Assembly (NCBI RefSeq): GCF_011058165.1
Contig: NZ_JAALEG010000030.1
Coordinates: forward strand, 1 to 58,150
Reading direction: 5' to 3'
DNA from: Rhodococcus aetherivorans
GTDB taxonomy: Bacteria > Actinomycetota > Actinomycetes > Mycobacteriales > Mycobacteriaceae
Length of the DNA stretch: 58,150 nucleotides
Part shown: positions 7,601 to 36,949 of the stretch, in pieces
Layout: each line of letters begins with the position of its first letter
Position numbering within the stretch: the first letter of the stretch is position 1
The notes under the pieces: model-generated
The model's input: the letters and a program-made list of their open reading frames with translations, nothing else
Told to the model about the DNA's origin: nothing
Database searches by the model: none
Made by a program: the position numbers and the translations under genes

Positions 7601-8914
7601 ATGCAAGTTGGTGCCCTGTTCGGCAGGTATCGCCTGGACCGTCCACTGTCGGTGGATGCGACCGGCGAGGTGTGGGCCGCGTTCGACACGATCACGCATC
7701 GGCACGTCGCCGTGCGGGCGCTGCCGCCGGAGGCGACCGAGGACGACGACTACCGCGCTCGTTTCGAACGGGAAGCCGAGATCGCAGCGCGCATCCGGAA
7801 CCCGCATGTGGTCCCGATCCACGACTTCGGGCAGATCGGCAGCCGGCTCTTCCTCGCAACGCCGATCGTCCAGGGCACGAGCCTGCAGGCGATGCTCCGG
7901 GCCACCGGCGCAATGGAGGTGCCGCGCGCGGTCGACGTCGTCGAGCAGCTGGCGTCGGCCCTCGCGGCCGTGCACGCGGCCGGACTGGTCGAGCAGGAGG
8001 TGACGTCGGCGAACGTCCTCGTGCAGGACGATGGGCTGATCTGCCTCACCGATGTGGGGTTCCCCCCGCATCCCGGCGCGGCGTCGGGCGTCTACGGCCT
8101 GACCACCGTGCTGTACGAATGCCTCACCGGCCGACTCTTCCAGTCGTCGAGCGGACCGACGTTGCCACCGCAATCGTCGTCGGTGCTCTCGACCCTGCCC
8201 GCCGGTATGGTCGACGTGATCGCCCGCGGAACGGCAGCCGAACCCGCGCGGCGTTACGGATCGGTGGGCGAGCTGGCCGCTGCCGCGCGCACCGCGGCAA
8301 CATCGCAGCGACCCGCCCACAGGGCCTCGACCGCGATCGTTCCGGTCGACTGGAGCCGGCGCATCCTGGTCGCAGGCCTCGCGCTGGCGGCGATCATCGC
8401 CGTTTTCGTCGTCGGCAGCATGGCACTCGGCGCGATATCGCCCTCGTCCGAGGGCGCCGACCCCGCTCCGCTCCCGATCGCGGCGCGGCCGGCCGCGCCG
8501 ACACCGTCGCCACCGACCACCCCGACAGGTGCGGACGAGGTGCCGCCGGAACCAGCGACACCTCGGACGGAAGCTCCGGCCGCCGAGGCTCCTCCGCTTC
8601 GGGAGGCGGCCCCACCGGCACCCACACCCCGATCCGCACCGCAATCGCCACCTGCACCGGCACCGCCACCTGCACCGGCACCGCCACCGCCGGCGCCCGC
8701 GCCGCAGGTACTGCCCTGCTACCCCGGCTACGAGCACACCCCGCTACCGGACGGACCCTGCCTTCCGGCCGGCTCACCCCCCGCACCAGCCCCGGCACCG
8801 CCGGCGCCCGCGCCGCAGGTACTGCCCTGCTACCCCGGCTACGAGCACACCCCGCCACCGGACGGGCCGTGCTGGGCCCCCGCGAGCCTGCGGGGCCCGA
8901 CCGGCGACGGGTGA
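7601..8914 (+). CDS. Membrane-anchored Ser/Thr protein pseudokinase
   Basis: Residues 8-235 follow the bacterial Pkn kinase fold, but key residues are lost. The glycine loop is degenerate, the VAIK lysine is Arg (VAVRAL, R39), and the HRDxKxxN catalytic loop reads EQEVTSAN, so the catalytic Asp is Glu and the following Lys is Thr. DFG survives as DVG (151-153), and the activation segment and APE motif are almost absent before GVYGLTTVLYECLTG. A transmembrane helix spans about residues 254-276. The extracytoplasmic part is Pro/Ala-rich with two copies of a Cys-containing repeat (VLPCYPGYEHTP). It probably binds partners or nucleotide rather than phosphorylating. GGGGCGGAG precedes the ATG. Confidence 0.85.
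   Translation: MQVGALFGRYRLDRPLSVDATGEVWAAFDTITHRHVAVRALPPEATEDDDYRARFEREAEIAARIRNPHVVPIHDFGQIGSRLFLATPIVQGTSLQAMLRATGAMEVPRAVDVVEQLASALAAVHAAGLVEQEVTSANVLVQDDGLICLTDVGFPPHPGAASGVYGLTTVLYECLTGRLFQSSSGPTLPPQSSSVLSTLPAGMVDVIARGTAAEPARRYGSVGELAAAARTAATSQRPAHRASTAIVPVDWSRRILVAGLALAAIIAVFVVGSMALGAISPSSEGADPAPLPIAARPAAPTPSPPTTPTGADEVPPEPATPRTEAPAAEAPPLREAAPPAPTPRSAPQSPPAPAPPPAPAPPPPAPAPQVLPCYPGYEHTPLPDGPCLPAGSPPAPAPAPPAPAPQVLPCYPGYEHTPPPDGPCWAPASLRGPTGDG
8686..8872 (+). repeat. Intragenic duplication in the pseudokinase tail
   Basis: A segment of about 76 bp at 8686-8761 recurs at 8797-8872, offset by 111 bp (37 codons). Each copy encodes PAPAPQVLPCYPGYEHTP and ends with DGPC. The near-identity at DNA level points to a recent tandem duplication; two Cys per unit could form a disulfide outside the cell. 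Confidence 0.8.
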
Positions 8915-25674: not shown

Positions 25675-25835
25675 ACCGGCGACGAGCGCCGCAGTACCGG
25701 TCGCGGCACGCCGAGCGCAGGCGACCGTGTGGGCGCCCTCGCCGTTGTGACTTTCCGCTGTAGATGGCCGGGATTGCCTGCCGGGCCGGTGCCCGTTGCC
25801 GGGGCCGAGACCCGGGTGGTCGGCGAGCGGCGGCG

Positions 25836-25940
25836 CTACATCGGCATGTTCATCATGGGCATCCCGCCCATCTGGTGGAGCCACATCATCAGCTGGTGCA
25901 GCAGGGTGTGCGCCTGGTCCATCATGCCCATCATGTTCAC
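25836..25940 (-). CDS. Met/His-rich 34-residue peptide, candidate copper-binding peptide
   Basis: A GTG start at 25938-25940, with AAAGG nine bases upstream, opens a 34-codon frame. It encodes 13 Met and 3 His plus one Trp, with motifs MNMMGMMDQAH, HQLMMWLHQMGGM and PMMNMPM. Met clusters with His are typical Cu(I) or Ag(I) ligands. The peptide is too short and too polar for a signal sequence. A TGAAGA copper-box doublet lies 103-119 bp upstream on the same strand, and the rest of the copper island follows. I know no named family that it matches. The composition is most unlike neighbouring proteins, and chance is possible because the frame is short. Confidence 0.6.
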   Translation of the reverse strand: MNMMGMMDQAHTLLHQLMMWLHQMGGMPMMNMPM

Positions 25941-26042
25941 GGCCGTGACCTTTCTGGAGCCGAGTAACCCTCGGGGGCGGGATCGTCCCACTATGGCGCT
26001 CTGTTGTTCCCCGATGTGCCACCTCGCCTGCGAGATCCGTCT

Positions 26043-26059
26043 TCTTCAACAGATCTTCA
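26043..26059 (-). promoter_or_regulatory. Copper box 1 (TGAAGA direct repeat)
   Basis: On the minus strand TGAAGATCTGTTGAAGAAG holds two TGAAGA half-sites 11 bp apart. It lies about 103 bp upstream of the Met-rich peptide start, in the same orientation. Confidence 0.7.
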
Positions 26060-26233
26060 CGAGATCTCGACTTTCGGTGTCCGGACACGGCAGGAGTGGG
26101 CCGCAGCACCCCCGCACTTCGGAACCTGCCGGCGCGCATGGCGTGGCACCGGTTCATTCGAGCTGTCGTGCGCCGCCCGGCGTGGGTGCGCTGCGGCTGT
26201 GCCAGTGGGGCGGTGCGGTTGCCCGCTCGGAGG

Positions 26234-27939: not shown

Positions 27940-28653
27940 TCACAACGAGGACAAAATGTTCTCCATCGTGGTGATCTCCTGCTGCTGCGTCTCGGCGATG
28001 GTGCGCGCCATGGCCACCGCGTCGGAATTCTGCCCGGAGTCGACCTCGGTCTGCGCCATCGCGATCGCGCCGCGGTGATGTTCGATCATCTGGGTCAGGA
28101 ACAGGCGGGACGCGTCGACACCCTGTGCGTCGCGCAGGGCGGTCATGTCCTCGGCCGACATCATCCCGCTCATGCCGCCACCCATCTGTCCGCCGCCGGG
28201 CATCGTGGTGGACTGCATCGGCATGTCGTGTCCGGGCATCTCCATCCCGGGGGACGACATGGGCATGTTCGGAGTGGCCATCGGCATGCTGGTCGTGCCC
28301 ATGGGCATGGTGGGCTGCCCCCAGTCGGTGAGCCAGCTCTGCAGCTGCTCGATCTCCGGGCCCTGGGCGGCCTTGATCTGCTGGGCCAGTTCGGTGACCC
28401 GCGGGTCGATGCCCTCCTTGGCCAGGATGACGTCGCTCATCTCGATGGCCTGGCTGTGGTGCGGGATCATCTGCTGGGCGAAGGTCACATCCGCCTGGTT
28501 GTGGTCGGCGGCCGTCTCGGCGGAGGCGCTGGTGGTCGCCGTCGCCGACGGGCTCGCCTGCGAGGCCTGATCGTTGCCCGAGTCGCTGCAGGCGGCCAGG
28601 GTGAGCGCCGCAGCGACCGCCACTGCGCCGGTGGCCAGAGACTTCTTCCTCAC
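27940..28653 (-). CDS. DUF305 lipoprotein with Met-rich metal-binding segment
   Basis: The 237-residue protein has a lipoprotein signal (ending ALTLAAC) and two DUF305 halves, each with an HH pair: QQMIPHHSQAIEMSDVIL and QMIEHHRGAIAMAQTEV. Between them lies a segment of about 60 residues dominated by Met, Pro and Gly with repeated xMPM units (TSMPMATPNMPM, PGMEMPGHDMPM). Such a segment is a likely Cu(I) sponge on the outer face of the membrane. The GTG at 28653 follows GGAAAGGAATG. It lies in the copper island, with two copper boxes upstream. Confidence 0.88.
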   Translation of the reverse strand: MRKKSLATGAVAVAAALTLAACSDSGNDQASQASPSATATTSASAETAADHNQADVTFAQQMIPHHSQAIEMSDVILAKEGIDPRVTELAQQIKAAQGPEIEQLQSWLTDWGQPTMPMGTTSMPMATPNMPMSSPGMEMPGHDMPMQSTTMPGGGQMGGGMSGMMSAEDMTALRDAQGVDASRLFLTQMIEHHRGAIAMAQTEVDSGQNSDAVAMARTIAETQQQEITTMENILSSL

Positions 28654-28881: not shown

Positions 28882-28898
28882 TGAAGATTTCCTGAAGA
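28882..28898 (+). promoter_or_regulatory. Copper box 2 (TGAAGA direct repeat)
   Basis: TGAAGATTTCCTGAAGAAC has two TGAAGA half-sites 11 bp apart. Of the six boxes it is the closest to the TGAAGATTT tandem repeat that I recall for the CopR regulator of Corynebacterium glutamicum. Confidence 0.75.
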
Positions 28899-29032: not shown

Positions 29033-29049
29033 TCTTGAGCAGATCTTCA
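29033..29049 (-). promoter_or_regulatory. Copper box 3 (imperfect TGAAGA repeat)
   Basis: On the minus strand TGAAGATCTGCTCAAGAAC has TGAAGA followed 11 bp later by TCAAGA. It is one mismatch from consensus and points toward the DUF305 gene. Confidence 0.55.
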
Positions 29050-29210
29050 CGGAAACGACGGCGAAGAGCTCATCGAGGCCGGGCACCGTGGACAGCGAAC
29101 ACACCGGGACCGCGCACCGCTGCCCCACGCGGGGTGCCGGTGCTGCGGCCGACCGGGTCGGACAGCCGGTGTCCGGTAGCGCCGACCGAGGGCGAGGAAG
29201 GGTGGTTTCG

Positions 29211-29477
29211 ATGATGTTCTGGTACGGCAACGGCATGAACGGTTGGGGTTATGTGCTCATGACCGTCGGGATGGTGGCGTTCTGGGCGTTGGTGATCGTC
29301 GGCATCGTGATGCTGGTGCGCGCCGCGACTCCCCGGTCGACACCACCGCCGGCGCCCTATGCCCCGACGCCGGAAGAGATTGTGGCCATGCGCTTCGCCC
29401 GCGGCGAGATCGACGAGGACGAGTACCGGCGCCGTCTCGACGCCCTGCACACCCATCGGCCCGGCCCGGGGGCGTGA
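29211..29477 (+). CDS. SHOCT-domain small membrane protein
   Basis: The 88-residue protein begins with a Met/Trp/Gly-rich stretch (MMFWYGNGMNGWGY), has one membrane helix (VLMTVGMVAFWALVIVGIVM) and ends with a SHOCT motif (EIVAMRFARGEIDEDEYRRR). SHOCT domains are short C-terminal helices often found in oligomeric membrane proteins. AGGAAGGGTGG precedes the ATG. A paralogue of similar build lies at 34595-34831 beside the multicopper oxidase, so both probably serve copper handling. Confidence 0.83.
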   Translation: MMFWYGNGMNGWGYVLMTVGMVAFWALVIVGIVMLVRAATPRSTPPPAPYAPTPEEIVAMRFARGEIDEDEYRRRLDALHTHRPGPGA

Positions 29478-29739: not shown

Positions 29740-32130
29740 TCAGCGGTGCGGGCTGGTAGGGATCGGCTCCGGTGCCGGGCGCGGCGCCGGCTGCTCCTGC
29801 GGTGGGGACGGCAACCGCAGCCGCTTGAGCATCAGCGCATTGACCGCGACGATCAGGCTCGAGCCGGACATCGACAACGCCGCGATCTCCGGGCGCAGCA
29901 CCAGCCCGAAGGCGGGCTCGAACACGCCGGCGGCGATCGGCAGCGCGATGACGTTGTAGCCGACCGCCCAGCCGAGATTCTGCCGCATCTTGCGCAAGGT
30001 GCCCCGGCCGATGCGCAGCGCAATCGGCACATCCAGCGGGTCCGAGCGCATCAGCACCAGATCGGCGGTTTCGATCGCGACGTCGGTGCCGGCACCGATG
30101 GCGATCCCCAGATCCGCCTGCGCGAGGGCGGGTGCGTCGTTGACGCCGTCGCCGACCATGGCGACCTTCTTCCCGGCTCTTTGCAGTTCGGCGATCTTGT
30201 CGGCCTTGTCGCCGGGCAGCACCTCGGCGATGACGGTGCCGATGCCCAGTTGTCCGGCGATGCGGCGGGCTGTGGCCACGTTGTCGCCGGAGAGCATGAC
30301 CACCTCGATGCCGAGTTCGTGCAGCGACGCCACCGCCTCGGCCGAGGTCTCCCGGGCGGCGTCGGCCAGGGCAATCGCCCCGACGCCGCGGCCGTCGACA
30401 GCGACGAGGACCGCGGTGCGGCCGGTCGAAGCCAGCTCGTCGCGCCGGTCCATCAACGCGCCGAAGTCGACATTCTCGGCGACCATGAGTTTGCGGTTGC
30501 CGACGGCCACCCGCCGGCCCGCCACCTCGGCGACCGCACCGTGTCCGGGCACGTTGCGGAAGTTCTCCAACGACACCGCGGGAAGGCCGCGGGCGGCGGC
30601 ATAGCGCACGATCGCACCGGCGAGAGGATGTTCGGATTCGCGTTCGACCGCCGTCACCAGGGTCAGCAGCTCGTCCTCGGTGAGCCCGTCGACGACGACG
30701 TCGGTGACCTCCGGCTCGCCCTTGGTCAAGGTGCCGGTCTTGTCCATCACCACGGTGTCGATGCGGGCCGAGGTCTCGAGGGCGGTGGCGTTCTTGAACA
30801 GCACGCCGCGCTGGGCGCCGAGACCGGTGCCGACCATGATCGCGGTCGGGGTGGCCAACCCGAGCGCGTCGGGGCAGGTGATCACCACGACGGTGATGGC
30901 AAACAGCAGCGCCCGCTGCACATCCCCGTCGACCGCCCACCACACCACGAACGTGCCCAGCCCCCCGATCAGGGCGACGAGCACCAGCCAGAATGCGGCG
31001 CGATCGGCCAGGCGCTGGCCGGGTGCCTTGGAATTCTGGGCCTCCTGCACCAGCGCGACGATCTGCGCGAGCGCGGTGTCGGAGCCGACCTTGGTCGCCC
31101 GTACCCGCAGGGTGCCGGTGGTGTTGATCGACGCACCGATCACCTCGGACCCTTCGGCCTTGGTCACCGGCAGGGACTCCCCGGTGACCATGGATTCGTC
31201 GACCTCGGAACTGCCGGTCTCGACGGTGCCGTCGACCGGGATCTTCGCCCCCGGTCGGATCAGGAGCAGGTCCCCGACCACGACCTCGGCGGTGGGGATC
31301 TCCACCGGCTGCCCGTCGCGCAGTACCACCGCCATCGGCGGGGCGAGTTCGAGCAGGGTCCGGATGGCATCGTTGGCGCCGCCGCGGGCGCGCATCTCGA
31401 ACCAGTGCCCGAGCAGCACGAAGCTCGCCAGCACGGAGGCGGCCTCGTAGAACACCTCGCCGCCGCCCGTCAGTGTCACGCCCACGCTGTAGAGCCAGCC
31501 GGTGCCGATCGCGACGGCGACGAGCACCATCATGTCCAGGGTCCGCGCCTTCAAGGCCCGGTAGGCACCGTCGAAGAAGATCCACGACGAGTAGAAGATC
31601 ACCGGCAGGCTCAGCAACAGGGTGAACACGTCGTCGCGCAGGCCGAACGGCGCCGGGACGGTGAACCCGAACATCTCGCGACCCATCGGCGACCACAACA
31701 TGATCGGGATCGACAGCACCAGCGCCACCAGGAACCGATTGCGCATGTCGCGGACCATGGCGTCCATCGACATCCCGGCGTGACCGCCGTGACCCATCAG
31801 CTCCTGCGCGGTGTGCCCGCCGGGCATCTCGTGCGCCGCCGGCTGCGGGGGATGTGCGGGTGTGCCCGGGCCCGGAGCCGGTTCGCTCATCGGGTCGCAC
31901 ACGTGCTCGGGCACCGAGCGGCCGGCGCAGTGATAGCCGCAGTCCCGCACCCATTTCGACAGCTCCGCCACCGACGTGCGGTCCGGATCGTAGGTGACGG
32001 TGGCGGTCTGGTTCACCGCGTTGGCCTCCACCGCGGTCACTCCCGGTCGGCGCAGCAGGGCCGATTCGATGACCGGCGTCGACGTCGCCCAGTGCAGGCC
32101 GCCTACTTCGAGAACGGTGGTTCGGTTCAT
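29740..32130 (-). CDS. Copper-type P1B heavy-metal-translocating ATPase with CPD motif
   Basis: The 796-residue pump has a degenerate N-terminal HMA-like domain (residues 4-66) in which the CxxC loop is replaced by GGLHWATS. A Cys/His segment follows ([19 protein letters not shown]) and then a His/Met-rich stretch ([13 protein letters not shown]), as in CopB pumps. It has TGES (316-319), the phosphorylated Asp in DKTGT (D463), SEHPL and GDGVNDAP. The transmembrane metal site reads CPD (419-421, [12 protein letters not shown]) instead of CPC or CPH. It should export Cu or Ag. The ATG at 32130 follows AGGGAGGG. Two copper boxes lie in the 404 bp upstream. Confidence 0.9.
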
Positions 32131-32291
32131 TCGATCCGGTCCCTCCCTCTGATAGCGGGGACGCATTACTCGCCCCCGTACGCAGTGCGGTTCCGCCGAA
32201 CCGCAGTACCGGTAGCCGACACCGGTGAACGGTCATCGCTGATCGAGTCCGAGTCTGCCCCGCCCCGCCCCGGCGTCTTCTGGTGGTTGGA

Positions 32292-32308
32292 TGAAGATCC
32301 GTTGAAGA
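32292..32308 (+). promoter_or_regulatory. Copper box 4 (TGAAGA direct repeat)
   Basis: TGAAGATCCGTTGAAGAAG has two perfect TGAAGA half-sites 11 bp apart. It lies 162 bp upstream of the ATPase start, on the opposite strand. Confidence 0.7.
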
Positions 32309-32468: not shown

Positions 32469-32485
32469 TGAAGATCTGTTGAAGA
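32469..32485 (+). promoter_or_regulatory. Copper box 5 (TGAAGA direct repeat)
   Basis: TGAAGATCTGTTGAAGACT has two perfect TGAAGA half-sites 11 bp apart; its first 16 bases equal those of box 1 read on its own strand. It lies 49 bp past the end of the membrane-protein gene and 338 bp upstream of the ATPase start. Confidence 0.7.
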
Positions 32486-33007: not shown

Positions 33008-34540
33008 TCAGGCGCGGTAGGACAGGGTCGTCATCATTCCGGCTTCCTGGTGGTAGGCGTTGTGGCAGTGCAGGGCCCACTGGCCCGGGTTGTCGGCGTC
33101 GAACTCGATTTCCACAGTCTGCATCGGACGCACCGTCACGGTGTCCTTGCGGGCTCCGCCGTCGACCAGGGCGAAGGTGTGTCCGTGCACGTGCATCGGG
33201 TGGAACATGGCCGACATGTTCCGCAGCCGCATCCGTACCCGTTGTCCCTGGGCGACGGTCAGCGGCGCGGTGTCGGGGAAGGTGGCGCCGTTGAGCATCC
33301 ACCGGTACGGGGCCATCGTGCCGCCCATGTCGACGCTCAGGTAGTTGTCGTGGGATCGTCGGGGCAACCGCACCTGCTCGGCCGGGGACAGGGCGGTGCC
33401 GAGCAGCACCCGCCGATCCAGCTCGCCGGGCCGGGTATCGGTGGTGGCCGTCCCGGCGGCGGTGCGCACGACGGCCACCGCGTGGCCGGGTTTGCCTTCG
33501 GCGGCGGCGTAGAGCGGGAACACCCCGTCGGCGAGGGTGACCAGCACATCGAACCGTTCGCCCATACCGATCAGCACCGCGTCGGTGTTCCGGGGGGACA
33601 CGGGGAAACCGTCACTGTGGGTGACCGTCATCGCATGTCCACCGAGCCCGACGCGGAAGGCGGTGTCCGAGGCGGCATTGACCAGCCGGATCCGCACCCG
33701 CTGCCCCGGGGCGGCGGTCAGGGTCACCGGGTCGACGGGGGTGCGGCCGTTGAGCAGGTAGTACGGGTAGTTCACGTCGCCGGCACCGCCGAGCAGGTCC
33801 GAGCGCATGCTCTCTGCACCCATCATCGAGCCCATGCCGCCCATCGCGCCGTGGTCCATCATCGAGCCCATCCCACCCGCGCGGGGGGCGAGCCGGCCGG
33901 GGGCCGGCATGCCGAGTTCGCGGGCGACATCGTCGGGGGTGCGGCCGGTGCCGTCGACCCAGTCGTCGAGCACGACGACCCATTCGTCGTCGTAGCCGCC
34001 GGGCTCGGCCGGGTCGTCGATCACCACCACCCCGTACAGGCCGCGGTCGAGCTGCAGCCCGGTATGCGAGTGGTAGAAGTAGGTGCCCGGATGCGGGGGC
34101 GTGAATTCGTAGGTGAACGACTCCCCGGCGACGATGGGCTCCTGCGTGAGCCCCGGTACCCCGTCCATGTCGTTGCTCATCGCGATGCCGTGGAAGTGGA
34201 TGCTGGTGTCGGCCTCGAGTCGGTTGTCGACCCGCACCTGCAGCAGATCCCCGGCCCGGGCCCGCAGCAGCGGACCGGGCAGCGTGTCACCATAGCCCCA
34301 GGTCGAGACCACCGTACCGCCGAGGTCGACCTGCACAGGCCGCGCCGTCACCTGCGCGGCGACCACCGCCTGCCCGGTGGTACGGCGTTGGGCCTCGAGC
34401 CGGCGCACCGCCTCGGCGCCCGGCCCGACCGGATTTCCCGCTACACCGGGGCGGGCGCAGCCGACCGGCCCACCGAGGGCCATCGCCCCGGCGGCCGCGG
34501 ACGCACCGAGCAGAAACATACGGCGGGACATCTGCACCAC
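33008..34540 (-). CDS. Multicopper oxidase (CueO/CopO/MmcO type)
   Basis: This Tat-exported (SRRMFLLGASAAAGAMALGG) oxidase of about 510 residues has three cupredoxin domains. The copper motifs are complete: SIHFHG, YFYHSHTG, HPMHVHGHTF and HCHNAYHQEAGMM. A Met-rich insert (GGMGSMMDHGAMGGMGSMM) recalls the CueO substrate-binding region. It should oxidise Cu(I) to the less toxic Cu(II) outside the membrane. AGGAG lies six bases before a GTG at 34540; an ATG at 34531 is the usual alternative. It is the middle gene of a SHOCT-oxidase-membrane protein operon. Confidence 0.93.
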   Translation of the reverse strand: MVQMSRRMFLLGASAAAGAMALGGPVGCARPGVAGNPVGPGAEAVRRLEAQRRTTGQAVVAAQVTARPVQVDLGGTVVSTWGYGDTLPGPLLRARAGDLLQVRVDNRLEADTSIHFHGIAMSNDMDGVPGLTQEPIVAGESFTYEFTPPHPGTYFYHSHTGLQLDRGLYGVVVIDDPAEPGGYDDEWVVVLDDWVDGTGRTPDDVARELGMPAPGRLAPRAGGMGSMMDHGAMGGMGSMMGAESMRSDLLGGAGDVNYPYYLLNGRTPVDPVTLTAAPGQRVRIRLVNAASDTAFRVGLGGHAMTVTHSDGFPVSPRNTDAVLIGMGERFDVLVTLADGVFPLYAAAEGKPGHAVAVVRTAAGTATTDTRPGELDRRVLLGTALSPAEQVRLPRRSHDNYLSVDMGGTMAPYRWMLNGATFPDTAPLTVAQGQRVRMRLRNMSAMFHPMHVHGHTFALVDGGARKDTVTVRPMQTVEIEFDADNPGQWALHCHNAYHQEAGMMTTLSYRA

Positions 34541-34594
34541 ACACATCTCCTGGAAACGTTGGGACGACAACGGACGACACGAGGTCGGCGCCGC

Positions 34595-34831
34595 TCACCG
34601 ATAGGGACGCAGCGCCCGCCGCCGGGCTTGGTACTCGTCGGCGTCGATCTCGCCCCGTGCGAAACGGTCGTCGAGGACGCGCAGCGGATCGGCCGGCGGT
34701 GGCGGGGTGCCGGTGCGGTGACCGGTGCGGAACAGCGCGGCGATGCCGAAGGCCACCAACGCCCAGAAACCGATCATCGTCAGCGCCATCACCATCCAGC
34801 CGGCCCAGCCCACTGCGCCCGATCCCCACAT
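34595..34831 (-). CDS. SHOCT-domain small membrane protein, paralogue
   Basis: The 78-residue protein has one membrane helix (MVMALTMIGFWALVAFGIAA) and a C-terminal SHOCT motif (RVLDDRFARGEIDADEYQAR). GAAAGGAGCGG precedes the ATG. It is the first gene of the oxidase operon and is divergent from the two-component system, with copper box 6 between them. It resembles the protein at 29211-29477. Confidence 0.83.
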   Translation of the reverse strand: MWGSGAVGWAGWMVMALTMIGFWALVAFGIAALFRTGHRTGTPPPPADPLRVLDDRFARGEIDADEYQARRRALRPYR

Positions 34832-34906: not shown

Positions 34907-34923
34907 TGAAGGTTCGCTGAAGA
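34907..34923 (+). promoter_or_regulatory. Copper box 6 (TGAAGG/TGAAGA repeat)
   Basis: TGAAGGTTCGCTGAAGAAC has half-sites 11 bp apart, the first with one mismatch. It lies 39 bp before the response regulator start and 76 bp before the divergent SHOCT-oxidase operon, so it could control both and give autoregulation. Confidence 0.7.
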
Positions 34924-34961
34924 ACGTCGCCACCGGCCCGCCGCGGCGGTCACGATGGGAC

Positions 34962-35738
34962 ATGGCCTCCGGTTCCGATCAGCTCGTCCCCGCCTCTGCC
35001 TCGAGCGCAGCGGTCCCCCCGAGCGGCCTGCGGGCGCTGGTGGTCGAAGACGAAGTGGCGCTGGCCCGGGTGGTGGGCACCTACCTCGAACGCGCCGGCT
35101 GCGAGGTCACGCTCGTGCACGACGGGCTCGACGCCGTCGAGCGCGCCCGGCAGGTCGATCCGGATGTCGTGGTGCTCGATCTGGGGTTGCCGCACCTGGA
35201 CGGGATCGAGGTGTGCCGGCAGCTGCGCACGTTCTCCGACGCCTACGTCGTCATGCTCACCGCCCGCGCCGACGAGATCGACACCCTGGTCGGCCTGTCG
35301 GTCGGCGCCGACGACTACATGACCAAACCCTTCAGTCCGCGTGAACTCATCGCCCGCATCCAGGCCATGTTGCGGCGCCCCCGACCCTCGACCGGGGACG
35401 GCCGCACCCCCGCGCAGTCCGGCACCGATACCGGCCGCCGTACGTTCGGGTCGTTGACCCTCGATGCGGCCGGCCGCGAGGTGTGGGTCGACGGTACCCC
35501 GATCGCCTTGACCCGCACCGAATTCGACCTCCTCGCCGCGCTGTCCGCACACCCCAACATGGTGTTCACCCGGGCGCAGCTCATCACCGCGGTGTGGGGC
35601 CCGAGCTGGGTCGGCAACGAACACCTGGTCGACGTGCACATCGGGCACCTGCGCCGCAAACTCGGCGACGACGCCACCCGCGGGGTGTTCGTGCGCACCG
35701 TGCGCGGGGTCGGATACCGCATGGGAGCCGGGCAGTGA
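34962..35738 (+). CDS. OmpR-family response regulator of the copper island
   Basis: The 258-residue protein has a receiver domain (phospho-acceptor D73 in VVVLDLGLPHLDG, K122 in TKPFSPREL) and a C-terminal winged helix (LTRTEFDLLAALSAHPNMVF, then GNEHLVDVHIGHLRRKLG). OmpR-type regulators bind tandem half-sites one helical turn apart, which fits the six TGAAGA boxes in this island. It probably corresponds to CopR/CusR-type regulators. The kinase gene overlaps its stop codon. Confidence 0.92.
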   Translation: MASGSDQLVPASASSAAVPPSGLRALVVEDEVALARVVGTYLERAGCEVTLVHDGLDAVERARQVDPDVVVLDLGLPHLDGIEVCRQLRTFSDAYVVMLTARADEIDTLVGLSVGADDYMTKPFSPRELIARIQAMLRRPRPSTGDGRTPAQSGTDTGRRTFGSLTLDAAGREVWVDGTPIALTRTEFDLLAALSAHPNMVFTRAQLITAVWGPSWVGNEHLVDVHIGHLRRKLGDDATRGVFVRTVRGVGYRMGAGQ

Positions 35739-36949
35739 CCACACCACCCCCACCGGCGGCAGCAGGGCGGAGGCCCGGGCGCCGCAGTGTCGGATTCGGC
35801 AGCCGGCTACTGGCCGCGCAGGCGATCGTCGTCGTCGGCGGCGCGATCAGCGCCTGGCTGGTGGCCGCCGCCGTCGCCCCAGGACTGTTCCACAACCACC
35901 TCGAGCAGGCAGGTATCGAGCACGTCTCGACCGAGGCGGCGCATGTGGAGGAGGCGTTCACTTCGGCGATGATCATCTCGCTGGCCATCGCGCTGGTGGT
36001 CTCGGCGCTGATGGCGCTGGCGGTGAGCTGGTACTTCACCCGCAGGGTGCAGCGCTCGGTCACCGGCGTGGCCGCCTCGGCCACCGAGATCGCCGGCGGC
36101 CACTACGGCGTGCGGCTGCCCGGACCCGGTCTCGGGCACGAATTCGACCAGCTCGCCGAGACGTTCAACCAGCTCGCCGATCGGCTGGACTCGGTCGAAA
36201 CCACCCGGCGGCGCATGCTCTCGGATCTCGCGCACGAGATGCGCACCCCGCTGGCCACTCTCGATGCCCACCTCGAGGCCCTCGAAGACGGCATCCGGGT
36301 TTCCGACGCCGAGACCCTCGCGGTCCTGCGGTCGAGCACCGCCCGGCTCGGGCGGCTCGCCGAGGACATGGGCGCGGTCTCGCGCGCCGAAGAGGGCCGG
36401 CTGTCCGTCACGCCCGTGCCCACCGACACCCGCACCCTCGTCGACGCCGCGGTCCGCGTCGCCGCCGACCGCTACGCCGCCAAGGGCGTCGCCCTGGTCG
36501 AAGACGTCGAGCACCCCGCCGCGGTCACGGTCGACCCGGACCGGATCGGGCAGGTGCTGGGCAATCTGCTCGACAACGCCCTGCGGCACACCCCCGCCGG
36601 GGGCACGGTCACCGTCGCCACCACCGCCGTCGACGGAGAAGCCGGGATCACCGTCACCGACACCGGCGACGGCATCGCCGCCGAGCACCTGAGTCATCTG
36701 TTCGACCGGTTCTACCGTGCCGACCCCGCCCGCCGACGGCAAGAAGGCGGCAGCGGCATCGGATTGACCATCGCCCGCGCCCTGGTCGAAGCCCACGGCG
36801 GTACGCTGACCGCCTCCAGCGGCGGAGCCGGAACCGGCGCCCGATTCACCGTGCACCTGCCCACCGCCGCAGGCGCCCGCAACAGCGGGCGCACCACCCC
36901 TCCGCGGGGTGCCGTGCACGCCGGCACCGGTCCCCGGGAGCGGCGATGA
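35735..36949 (+). CDS. Sensor histidine kinase, putative copper sensor
   Basis: The 404-residue kinase has two membrane helices (about residues 26-48 and 76-100) flanking a short external loop of about 28 residues. The loop holds four His (H53, H55, H63, H70), a plausible metal site. HAMP follows, then the phosphorylated His in LAHEMRTPLATLDAH (H167), then the ATPase boxes LGNLLDNALRHTP, VTDTGDGIA and GGSGIGLTIA. The GTG start overlaps the response regulator stop (GTGA). Confidence 0.92.
   Translation: MTTPPPPAAAGRRPGRRSVGFGSRLLAAQAIVVVGGAISAWLVAAAVAPGLFHNHLEQAGIEHVSTEAAHVEEAFTSAMIISLAIALVVSALMALAVSWYFTRRVQRSVTGVAASATEIAGGHYGVRLPGPGLGHEFDQLAETFNQLADRLDSVETTRRRMLSDLAHEMRTPLATLDAHLEALEDGIRVSDAETLAVLRSSTARLGRLAEDMGAVSRAEEGRLSVTPVPTDTRTLVDAAVRVAADRYAAKGVALVEDVEHPAAVTVDPDRIGQVLGNLLDNALRHTPAGGTVTVATTAVDGEAGITVTDTGDGIAAEHLSHLFDRFYRADPARRRQEGGSGIGLTIARALVEAHGGTLTASSGGAGTGARFTVHLPTAAGARNSGRTTPPRGAVHAGTGPRERR

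Follow-up and report, generated by a model that had tools for sequence, protein, structure and literature searches.

A conserved methionine- and histidine-rich micropeptide gene behind a CopR-type box in Rhodococcus, with a probable role in copper handling

MymT, from a related genus, is tiny, stress-induced and rich in metal ligands; PcoE, like SilE, carries HXXM and HXXMM sites of histidine and methionine, and CusF is a folded periplasmic protein. In the part of PMC10080550 drawn on here, the histidine and methionine of the SilE HXXMM motif bind Ag+ and a helix forms in model peptides, while in CusF histidine, methionine and tryptophan hold Ag(I); SilE sites of histidine and methionine that bind Ag(I) and are helical once bound are also the subject of PMC5008109. 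For C. glutamicum, the section of PMC3140484 on the regulator has CopR binding the site TGAAGATTTnnTGAAGATTT. Here we describe, from a stretch of 58,150 nucleotides of Rhodococcus aetherivorans (the window), a short gene that lies beside a copper island. Judged by its sequence, the 34-codon frame is a real gene, and because it is conserved and stands behind a copper-response switch, it probably helps these bacteria handle copper. The gene and the elements before it are:

25836..25940, minus strand: micropeptide gene with a GTG start, 34 codons and a TAG stop (conserved frame, synonymous bias, methionine excess)
25949..25955, minus strand: Shine-Dalgarno-like AGAAAGG, 8 nt before the GTG
26043..26059, minus strand: CopR-type box TGAAGATCTGTTGAAGA, matched perfectly, between 103 and 119 nt upstream of the GTG
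26054..26070, minus strand: overlapping weaker repeat of the CopR-type box, 2 mismatches

The product of the minus strand from 25940 to 25836 is, in translation, VNMMGMMDQAHTLLHQLMMWLHQMGGMPMMNMPM, which has three histidines and, with the GTG start counted as Met, 13 methionines. An earlier note on the window had placed at these coordinates a 34-residue peptide of just this makeup, with a ribosome-binding site and with a copper box 103-119 bp upstream in the same orientation. All of this holds, provided that the GTG counts as Met; the strand, which the note left unstated, is minus, and the box is a perfect match of the CopR type. The composition is indeed as unusual as had been claimed: methionine makes up 38% of the 34-codon frame, the highest share among the 1,144 stretches from start to stop, 20-70 aa long, that the window contains, where the runner-up has 17%, and the binomial probability of at least 12 methionines per 33 codons at the window's ATG frequency is 5.5e-17. 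Across 20 generated windows (Markov, with dinucleotide frequencies as in the window), the share reached at most 15% among stretches of 28-70 aa. A simple consensus scan gave no promoter or terminator match. On the plus strand, an overlapping histidine-rich frame (25764-25967) is the shadow of the ATG codons, and we rejected it because a stop breaks it in R. coprophilus.

The earlier note had let its proposal hang on a frame conserved in relatives; such a frame is present, with synonymous bias, a near-fixed HxxMMWLH core and ribosome-binding sites. Between the window and R. zopfii (G017) there are 8 synonymous changes per 14.8 sites and 1 nonsynonymous change per 84.2 sites, and between the window and a plasmid copy of R. 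ruber there are 5 synonymous and 0 nonsynonymous changes. Pooled over four disjoint pairs of copies of our own choosing, the counts are 25 synonymous changes per 57.5 sites against 16 nonsynonymous changes per 338.5, the least constrained of the four being R. coprophilus with an R. pyridinivorans plasmid (8 synonymous, 11 nonsynonymous). Bias is weak or absent, with few changes to count, in some genome pairs from other groups: G395/G359 (0 synonymous, 3 nonsynonymous), G372/G264 (2 and 5) and G040/G207 (1 and 3). Of 31 family copies, 29 have a Shine-Dalgarno match of at least 4 nt ahead of the start and 19 have one of at least 6 nt; for 2,000 random ATG or GTG codons the shares are 31% and 1.8%.

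These 31 peptides, from 28 genomes of which three have two copies each (a broken copy in G014 being excluded), are 27-44 aa long and share the core H-x-x-M-M-W-L-H-x-M-G, which contains HXXMM. H15, M19 and G25 are invariant in all 31, M18 (Thr in G359) and H22 (Ala in G264) are each kept in 30, and W20 is kept in 26, counts that lean towards the core because members were selected by profile. The SilE-type site H15-x-x-M18-M19 is accordingly present in 30 of the 31, all except G359. When the peptide is drawn as an ideal helix, H11, H15, M18 and H22 fall on one face, within 60 degrees, and hydrophobic residues are retained at positions 17 and 21. By inspection, the length of the peptides leaves no room for a signal peptide. 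The window peptide has no cysteine and the 31 members have 0-2; a cysteine stands directly before the conserved H15 in 10 of 31, and the description 'Met-only' in the earlier note therefore fits the window's branch but not the whole family. One peptide of 44 aa (G237, L097) has the MMWLHGAG unit tandemly duplicated.

Within the genus, 6 of 18 genomes matched the peptide at E<=1, five of them real (E 1.2e-7 or better), and the later profile recovered the same five; carriers include R. ruber, R. zopfii, R. coprophilus and Rhodococcus sp. HM1. With the gene in 5 of 18 genomes, and its frame broken in one of these, we regard it as accessory. In Rhodococcus sp. HM1 (L017, around 8080-8250), an interrupted peptide frame adjoins CopRS-like and DUF305 genes. 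Of 401 genomes of the GTDB family, a profile built from nine copies matched 31 at E<=0.05; at the stricter E<=1e-4 it matched 26, of which nine were profile members and 17 independent of the profile. We prefer the E<=1e-4 set for counts, because about 20 false hits could be expected at 0.05 per genome. Matches at E<=1e-4 are spread over six genus groups, among them the window's own genus, Gordonia (G. amicalis) and Antrihabitans (A. stalactiti), and three weaker matches (G032, G264, G120) were retained because the core is present. Class-wide, a 29-peptide profile at E<=0.01 matched 1 of 345 genomes, which was the window's own, and no other. Several weak candidates were taken as chance or left uncounted: G191, G245 and G311 (genus group g29), each with an internal stop, G303, with an atypical core, G009, G290, G489 and G1026, and the second match of G017. 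A pattern search of named genomes gave 17 matches, 7 of which encode the peptide by eye (L024, L028, L030, L033, L035, L037, L040; the L037 copy is broken), and the other 10, like both viral-contig matches, look like chance.

Four peptides compared with Pfam and NCBIfam gave nothing at E<=1, and the window peptide gave nothing at E<=1 in PHROGs or at E<=10 among PDB sequences; an alignment of the peptide to DUF305 was likewise blank. Against plasmids (four peptides) and phages (one peptide) tBLASTn gave no match, probably owing to the low-complexity filter, since a DNA search later gave nine plasmid copies. Full-text searches of the open-access literature returned no such peptide in titles or abstract openings. 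The peptides would appear to form a new family, and a new variant of small metal-binding proteins.

The copper island next to the peptide gene is made up as follows:

27940..28644, minus strand: DUF305 Met-rich protein
28882..28898, plus strand: CopR-type box, 1 mismatch
29033..29049, minus strand: CopR-type box, 1 mismatch
29205..29477, plus strand: small protein with a SHOCT-like C-terminus (SHOCT E 4.6e-6, 26.6 bits, against a cut-off of 27)
29740..32166, minus strand: heavy-metal P-type ATPase with HMA domain and CPD motif
32292..32308, plus strand: CopR-type box, perfect match
32469..32485, plus strand: CopR-type box, perfect match
33008..34570, minus strand: multicopper oxidase
34595..34828, minus strand: second SHOCT protein
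34907..34923, plus strand: CopR-type box, 2 mismatches
34935..35738, plus strand: CopR-like response regulator (Response_reg, Trans_reg_C)
35750..36949, plus strand: CopS-like sensor kinase (HAMP, HisKA, HATPase_c)

Box matches at <=3 mismatches number 9 in the window against 1.13 expected. The 6.43-Mb genome holds 6 boxes at <=1 mismatch, and the pattern read backwards gives 0 matches at the same threshold; five of the six, the peptide's box among them, lie within the island, the sixth precedes a CopZ-like/CPC-type ATPase pair, and the five boxes besides the peptide's are all at copper genes. At L018 (4792-5230), the CopR-type box of the CopZ-like/CPC ATPase pair adjoins the palindrome ATACCCCTAGGGGGTAT, which we take to resemble a CsoR site. 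Copper pumps usually carry a CPC or CPH motif; CPD is found in the island ATPase and in three peptide-adjacent relatives (L089, L093, L104), and the genome's second copper-type ATPase carries CPC.

The 5' end of the box lies 119 nt before the start codon in the window and 118 nt before it in R. ruber. The DNA search placed copies of the peptide in nine Rhodococcus plasmid records, of which PLSDB classes five as conjugative, three as mobilizable and one as non-mobilizable; the gene table, which describes itself as incomplete, lists no feature beneath the peptide for any of the nine, and in one record a listed gene overlaps just the start of the longer DNA-search match. Six plasmid loci were inspected, five of them distinct, since L130 and L132 agree in peptide, box and neighbours. 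Each of the six has a CopR-type box, and from the 5' end of the box to the aligned start there are 114-124 nt; in L131, where the start codon is displaced, the distance is measured to the aligned position. This spacing lends the conserved frame further support; the box has 0 mismatches in four loci, 1 in one and 2 in one. Its overlapping weaker repeat also recurs, in R. ruber and in the plasmid loci L129, L130 and L132. The flanks of the five distinct loci differ (ArsR and DinB; cytochrome oxidase and antiporter; DUF305 and a two-component pair; cupin and IS110; universal stress protein and phosphoketolase), and box and peptide therefore appear to travel together as a unit.

Among nine other loci of the Rhodococcus branch, seven (R. 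ruber and the six plasmid loci) have the box at <=2 mismatches; for R. zopfii and R. coprophilus, neither the whole genome at <=1 mismatch nor the 1,200 nt upstream of the peptide at <=2 yielded a box. The box at <=1 mismatch is found in 13 of the 18 genomes of the genus, most of them without the peptide, and the backwards pattern in 3 of 18. Over the 31 loci of the family, a box at <=2 mismatches within 300 nt upstream occurs in five, namely the window, R. ruber, G179 and two Gordonia-group loci (2 mismatches each), and 360 kb of control regions contain 0 at <=2 mismatches and 11 at <=3. A weak CopR-like box with 2 mismatches lies 163-1152 nt upstream in the Gordonia-group loci L087, L088, L079 and L080.

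Copper genes adjoin some of the copies elsewhere. ATPases 68-82% identical to that of the window lie 59, 315 and 559 nt from the peptide in G340, G179 and G372b (3 of 30 loci), on its 3' side in G340 and G372b, and a multicopper oxidase lies 906 nt (G340) and 32 nt (G179) from it. In R. zopfii the neighbours of the copy include an ArsR-type regulator and a glyoxalase-fold protein, presumably CadI/ArsI-like, and in G360 (L086) the peptide adjoins a fused FTR1-cupredoxin-imelysin iron-uptake protein. A gene that resembles those of the window's SHOCT proteins (relatives of the protein at 29205..29477 are neighbours of the peptide elsewhere) shares the peptide's strand and is at most 120 nt away in 15 of 30 loci, 12 times upstream and 3 times downstream; 14 of the 15 are without a copper ATPase nearby, and the 12 upstream cases are not independent, because all come from genus group g24. 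The controls, 20 regions of 18 kb from arbitrary positions on contigs of these genomes, contained no SHOCT-type gene. By Pfam, the few neighbours scanned in three g24 loci include a universal stress protein, wax ester synthase (WS/DGAT), nitroreductase, flavodoxin, ferredoxin and trehalose genes, and those in G372, outside g24, include an M50-CBS protease and a phosphoribosyltransferase/erythromycin-esterase protein, which we take to be DosR-regulon types in M. tuberculosis.

The stringent DosR consensus GGGACTTNNGNCCCT, as given in the part of PMC6448022 used here, occurs at <=2 mismatches within 600 nt upstream of the peptide in 12 of 31 loci, against about 1 expected from 20 matches per 360 kb of controls. 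Seven of the 12 loci are from g24, the copper-ATPase loci G340 and G372b are also among the 12, and the 600 nt upstream of the window's own peptide contain no such box at <=2 mismatches. A looser DosR half-site pattern was uninformative, with about one match per kb everywhere. In 12 of 12 loci (L081-L085, L090, L092, L095-L097, L102, L103), the DNA ahead of the SHOCT-peptide pair contains, at <=2 mismatches and 368-428 nt before the peptide, an element that resembles a DosR site, GGCCGAAAGWCCCTG; because this element was derived from these same loci, the published consensus was used for the counts. The copper interpretation put forward in the earlier note is thus upheld in part: the conserved frame and the box at steady spacing support it, whereas R. 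zopfii and R. coprophilus have the peptide and no box at <=1 mismatch, and in the largest group of relatives the gene stands behind DosR-like boxes among SHOCT, universal-stress and wax-ester-synthase genes instead of copper genes.

The reading that we favour, with a probability of roughly 0.6, is that of a leaderless, stress-induced micropeptide that binds a soft metal, most likely Cu(I), is controlled by CopR, and buffers copper or passes it on. Copper stress would be relayed through CopS to CopR, which at the box would switch on the one-gene unit. The HxxMMWLH segment would then form a helix around the metal, with His11, His15, Met18 and His22 on one face, like the HXXMM site of SilE, and the Met/Pro tail would contribute thioether ligands. 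So loaded, the peptide may buffer Cu(I), or may hand it to neighbouring membrane machinery such as the P-type ATPase and the SHOCT protein. Against copper stand the methionine sites, which bind Cu(I) weakly in a cytosol rich in thiols, the apparent want of a signal peptide, the copies in R. zopfii and R. coprophilus, with no box within the limits given above, the genomes with a box and no peptide, the SHOCT-linked copies, most of which have no copper ATPase alongside, the DosR-like boxes and the patchy occurrence of the gene. The findings suit a peptide that would be made when stress raises Cu(I), under copper excess and possibly at low oxygen, at which multicopper oxidases fail; the link to low oxygen we infer from established bacterial copper control. 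Cu(I) stress is worse without oxygen, as work on E. coli Cus has it. For M. bovis, a hypoxia-specific copper response is described in the part of PMC9048740 considered here.

That the peptide is instead a small partner subunit of the SHOCT protein or of the P-type ATPase, its amphipathic Met/Trp helix docking on the membrane to tune or stabilise the partner while any metal is incidental, strikes us as rather unlikely. The close SHOCT gene in half of the loci and in none of the controls, the ATPase just downstream in G340 and the retained hydrophobic positions 17 and 21 would suit such a partner, but on plasmids, as in the window, the gene stands behind a box of its own and its flanks vary, metal better explains why H15, M18 and H22 share one helix face, and 12 of the 15 SHOCT loci come from one genus group. 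Mainly a hypoxia/NO stress peptide of the DosR type, recruited later to copper regulation and with a job other than copper, is in our view an unlikely identity for it. The 12 loci with DosR-type boxes and, for the few loci scanned, the Usp, WS/DGAT, nitroreductase and M50-CBS neighbours point that way; yet the 12 loci are not independent, with seven from a single genus group, the CopR-type box is kept at near-fixed spacing in the window's branch, and G340 and G372b combine a copper ATPase with a DosR-like box, so that the copper and DosR contexts overlap. The two contexts would join because Cu(I) stress is the worse without oxygen.

It is very improbable that the frame encodes a leader peptide that regulates a downstream gene through its translation: a pump gene does follow in G340 and G372b, but in the window the next same-strand gene is about 600 nt downstream, beyond a convergent gene, the peptide comes after the SHOCT gene in 12 of 30 loci, and what is conserved is the amino-acid sequence, not the codons. 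A chance or antisense frame, which its shortness, its GTG start and its want of annotation in nine plasmid records might suggest, is excluded in practice by conservation, given the profile matches, the synonymous bias, the Met excess and the Shine-Dalgarno matches. Taking the copper reading further, one may tentatively picture a new Cys-poor 'methionine metallothionein' family of ~30-residue Cu(I) micropeptides, common to CopR and DosR-type stress regulons, which would guard the cell against Cu(I) where copper oxidases that depend on oxygen fail, and would be spread by plasmids as a box-plus-peptide cassette; this wider picture is possible, though we hold it doubtful.

If confirmed, this would be a family of copper-handling micropeptides built on methionine and histidine instead of cysteine, in the bacterial family of the mycobacteria and of rhodococci with industrial uses. 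Because the peptide is absent from the nine plasmid gene tables, studies of the copper response and of dormancy may have missed it. It would also offer a compact system of 30 residues in which to study how Met/His/Trp sites bind Cu(I), and would tie copper stress to oxygen limitation in a way that can be tested.

Compared with the described systems, the peptide differs from metallothioneins of the MymT type, which are defined by clustered cysteines, in having none in the window and 0-2 among its relatives, and it shares with CusF just the ligand set. The island resembles the CopRS regulon of C. glutamicum in its direct-repeat box, multicopper oxidase, CopB-type ATPase and CopRS (PMC3140484); such a peptide is not mentioned in the part of that account used here, and the putative 9-kDa frame that it describes differs in size and place. 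SilE is a far longer, periplasmic Gram-negative protein, whereas the peptide has 27-44 aa with no apparent signal peptide, and the searches of Pfam, NCBIfam, PHROGs and PDB returned no family or structure match. What the family peptides do share with SilE and PcoE are the HXXM and HXXMM motifs.
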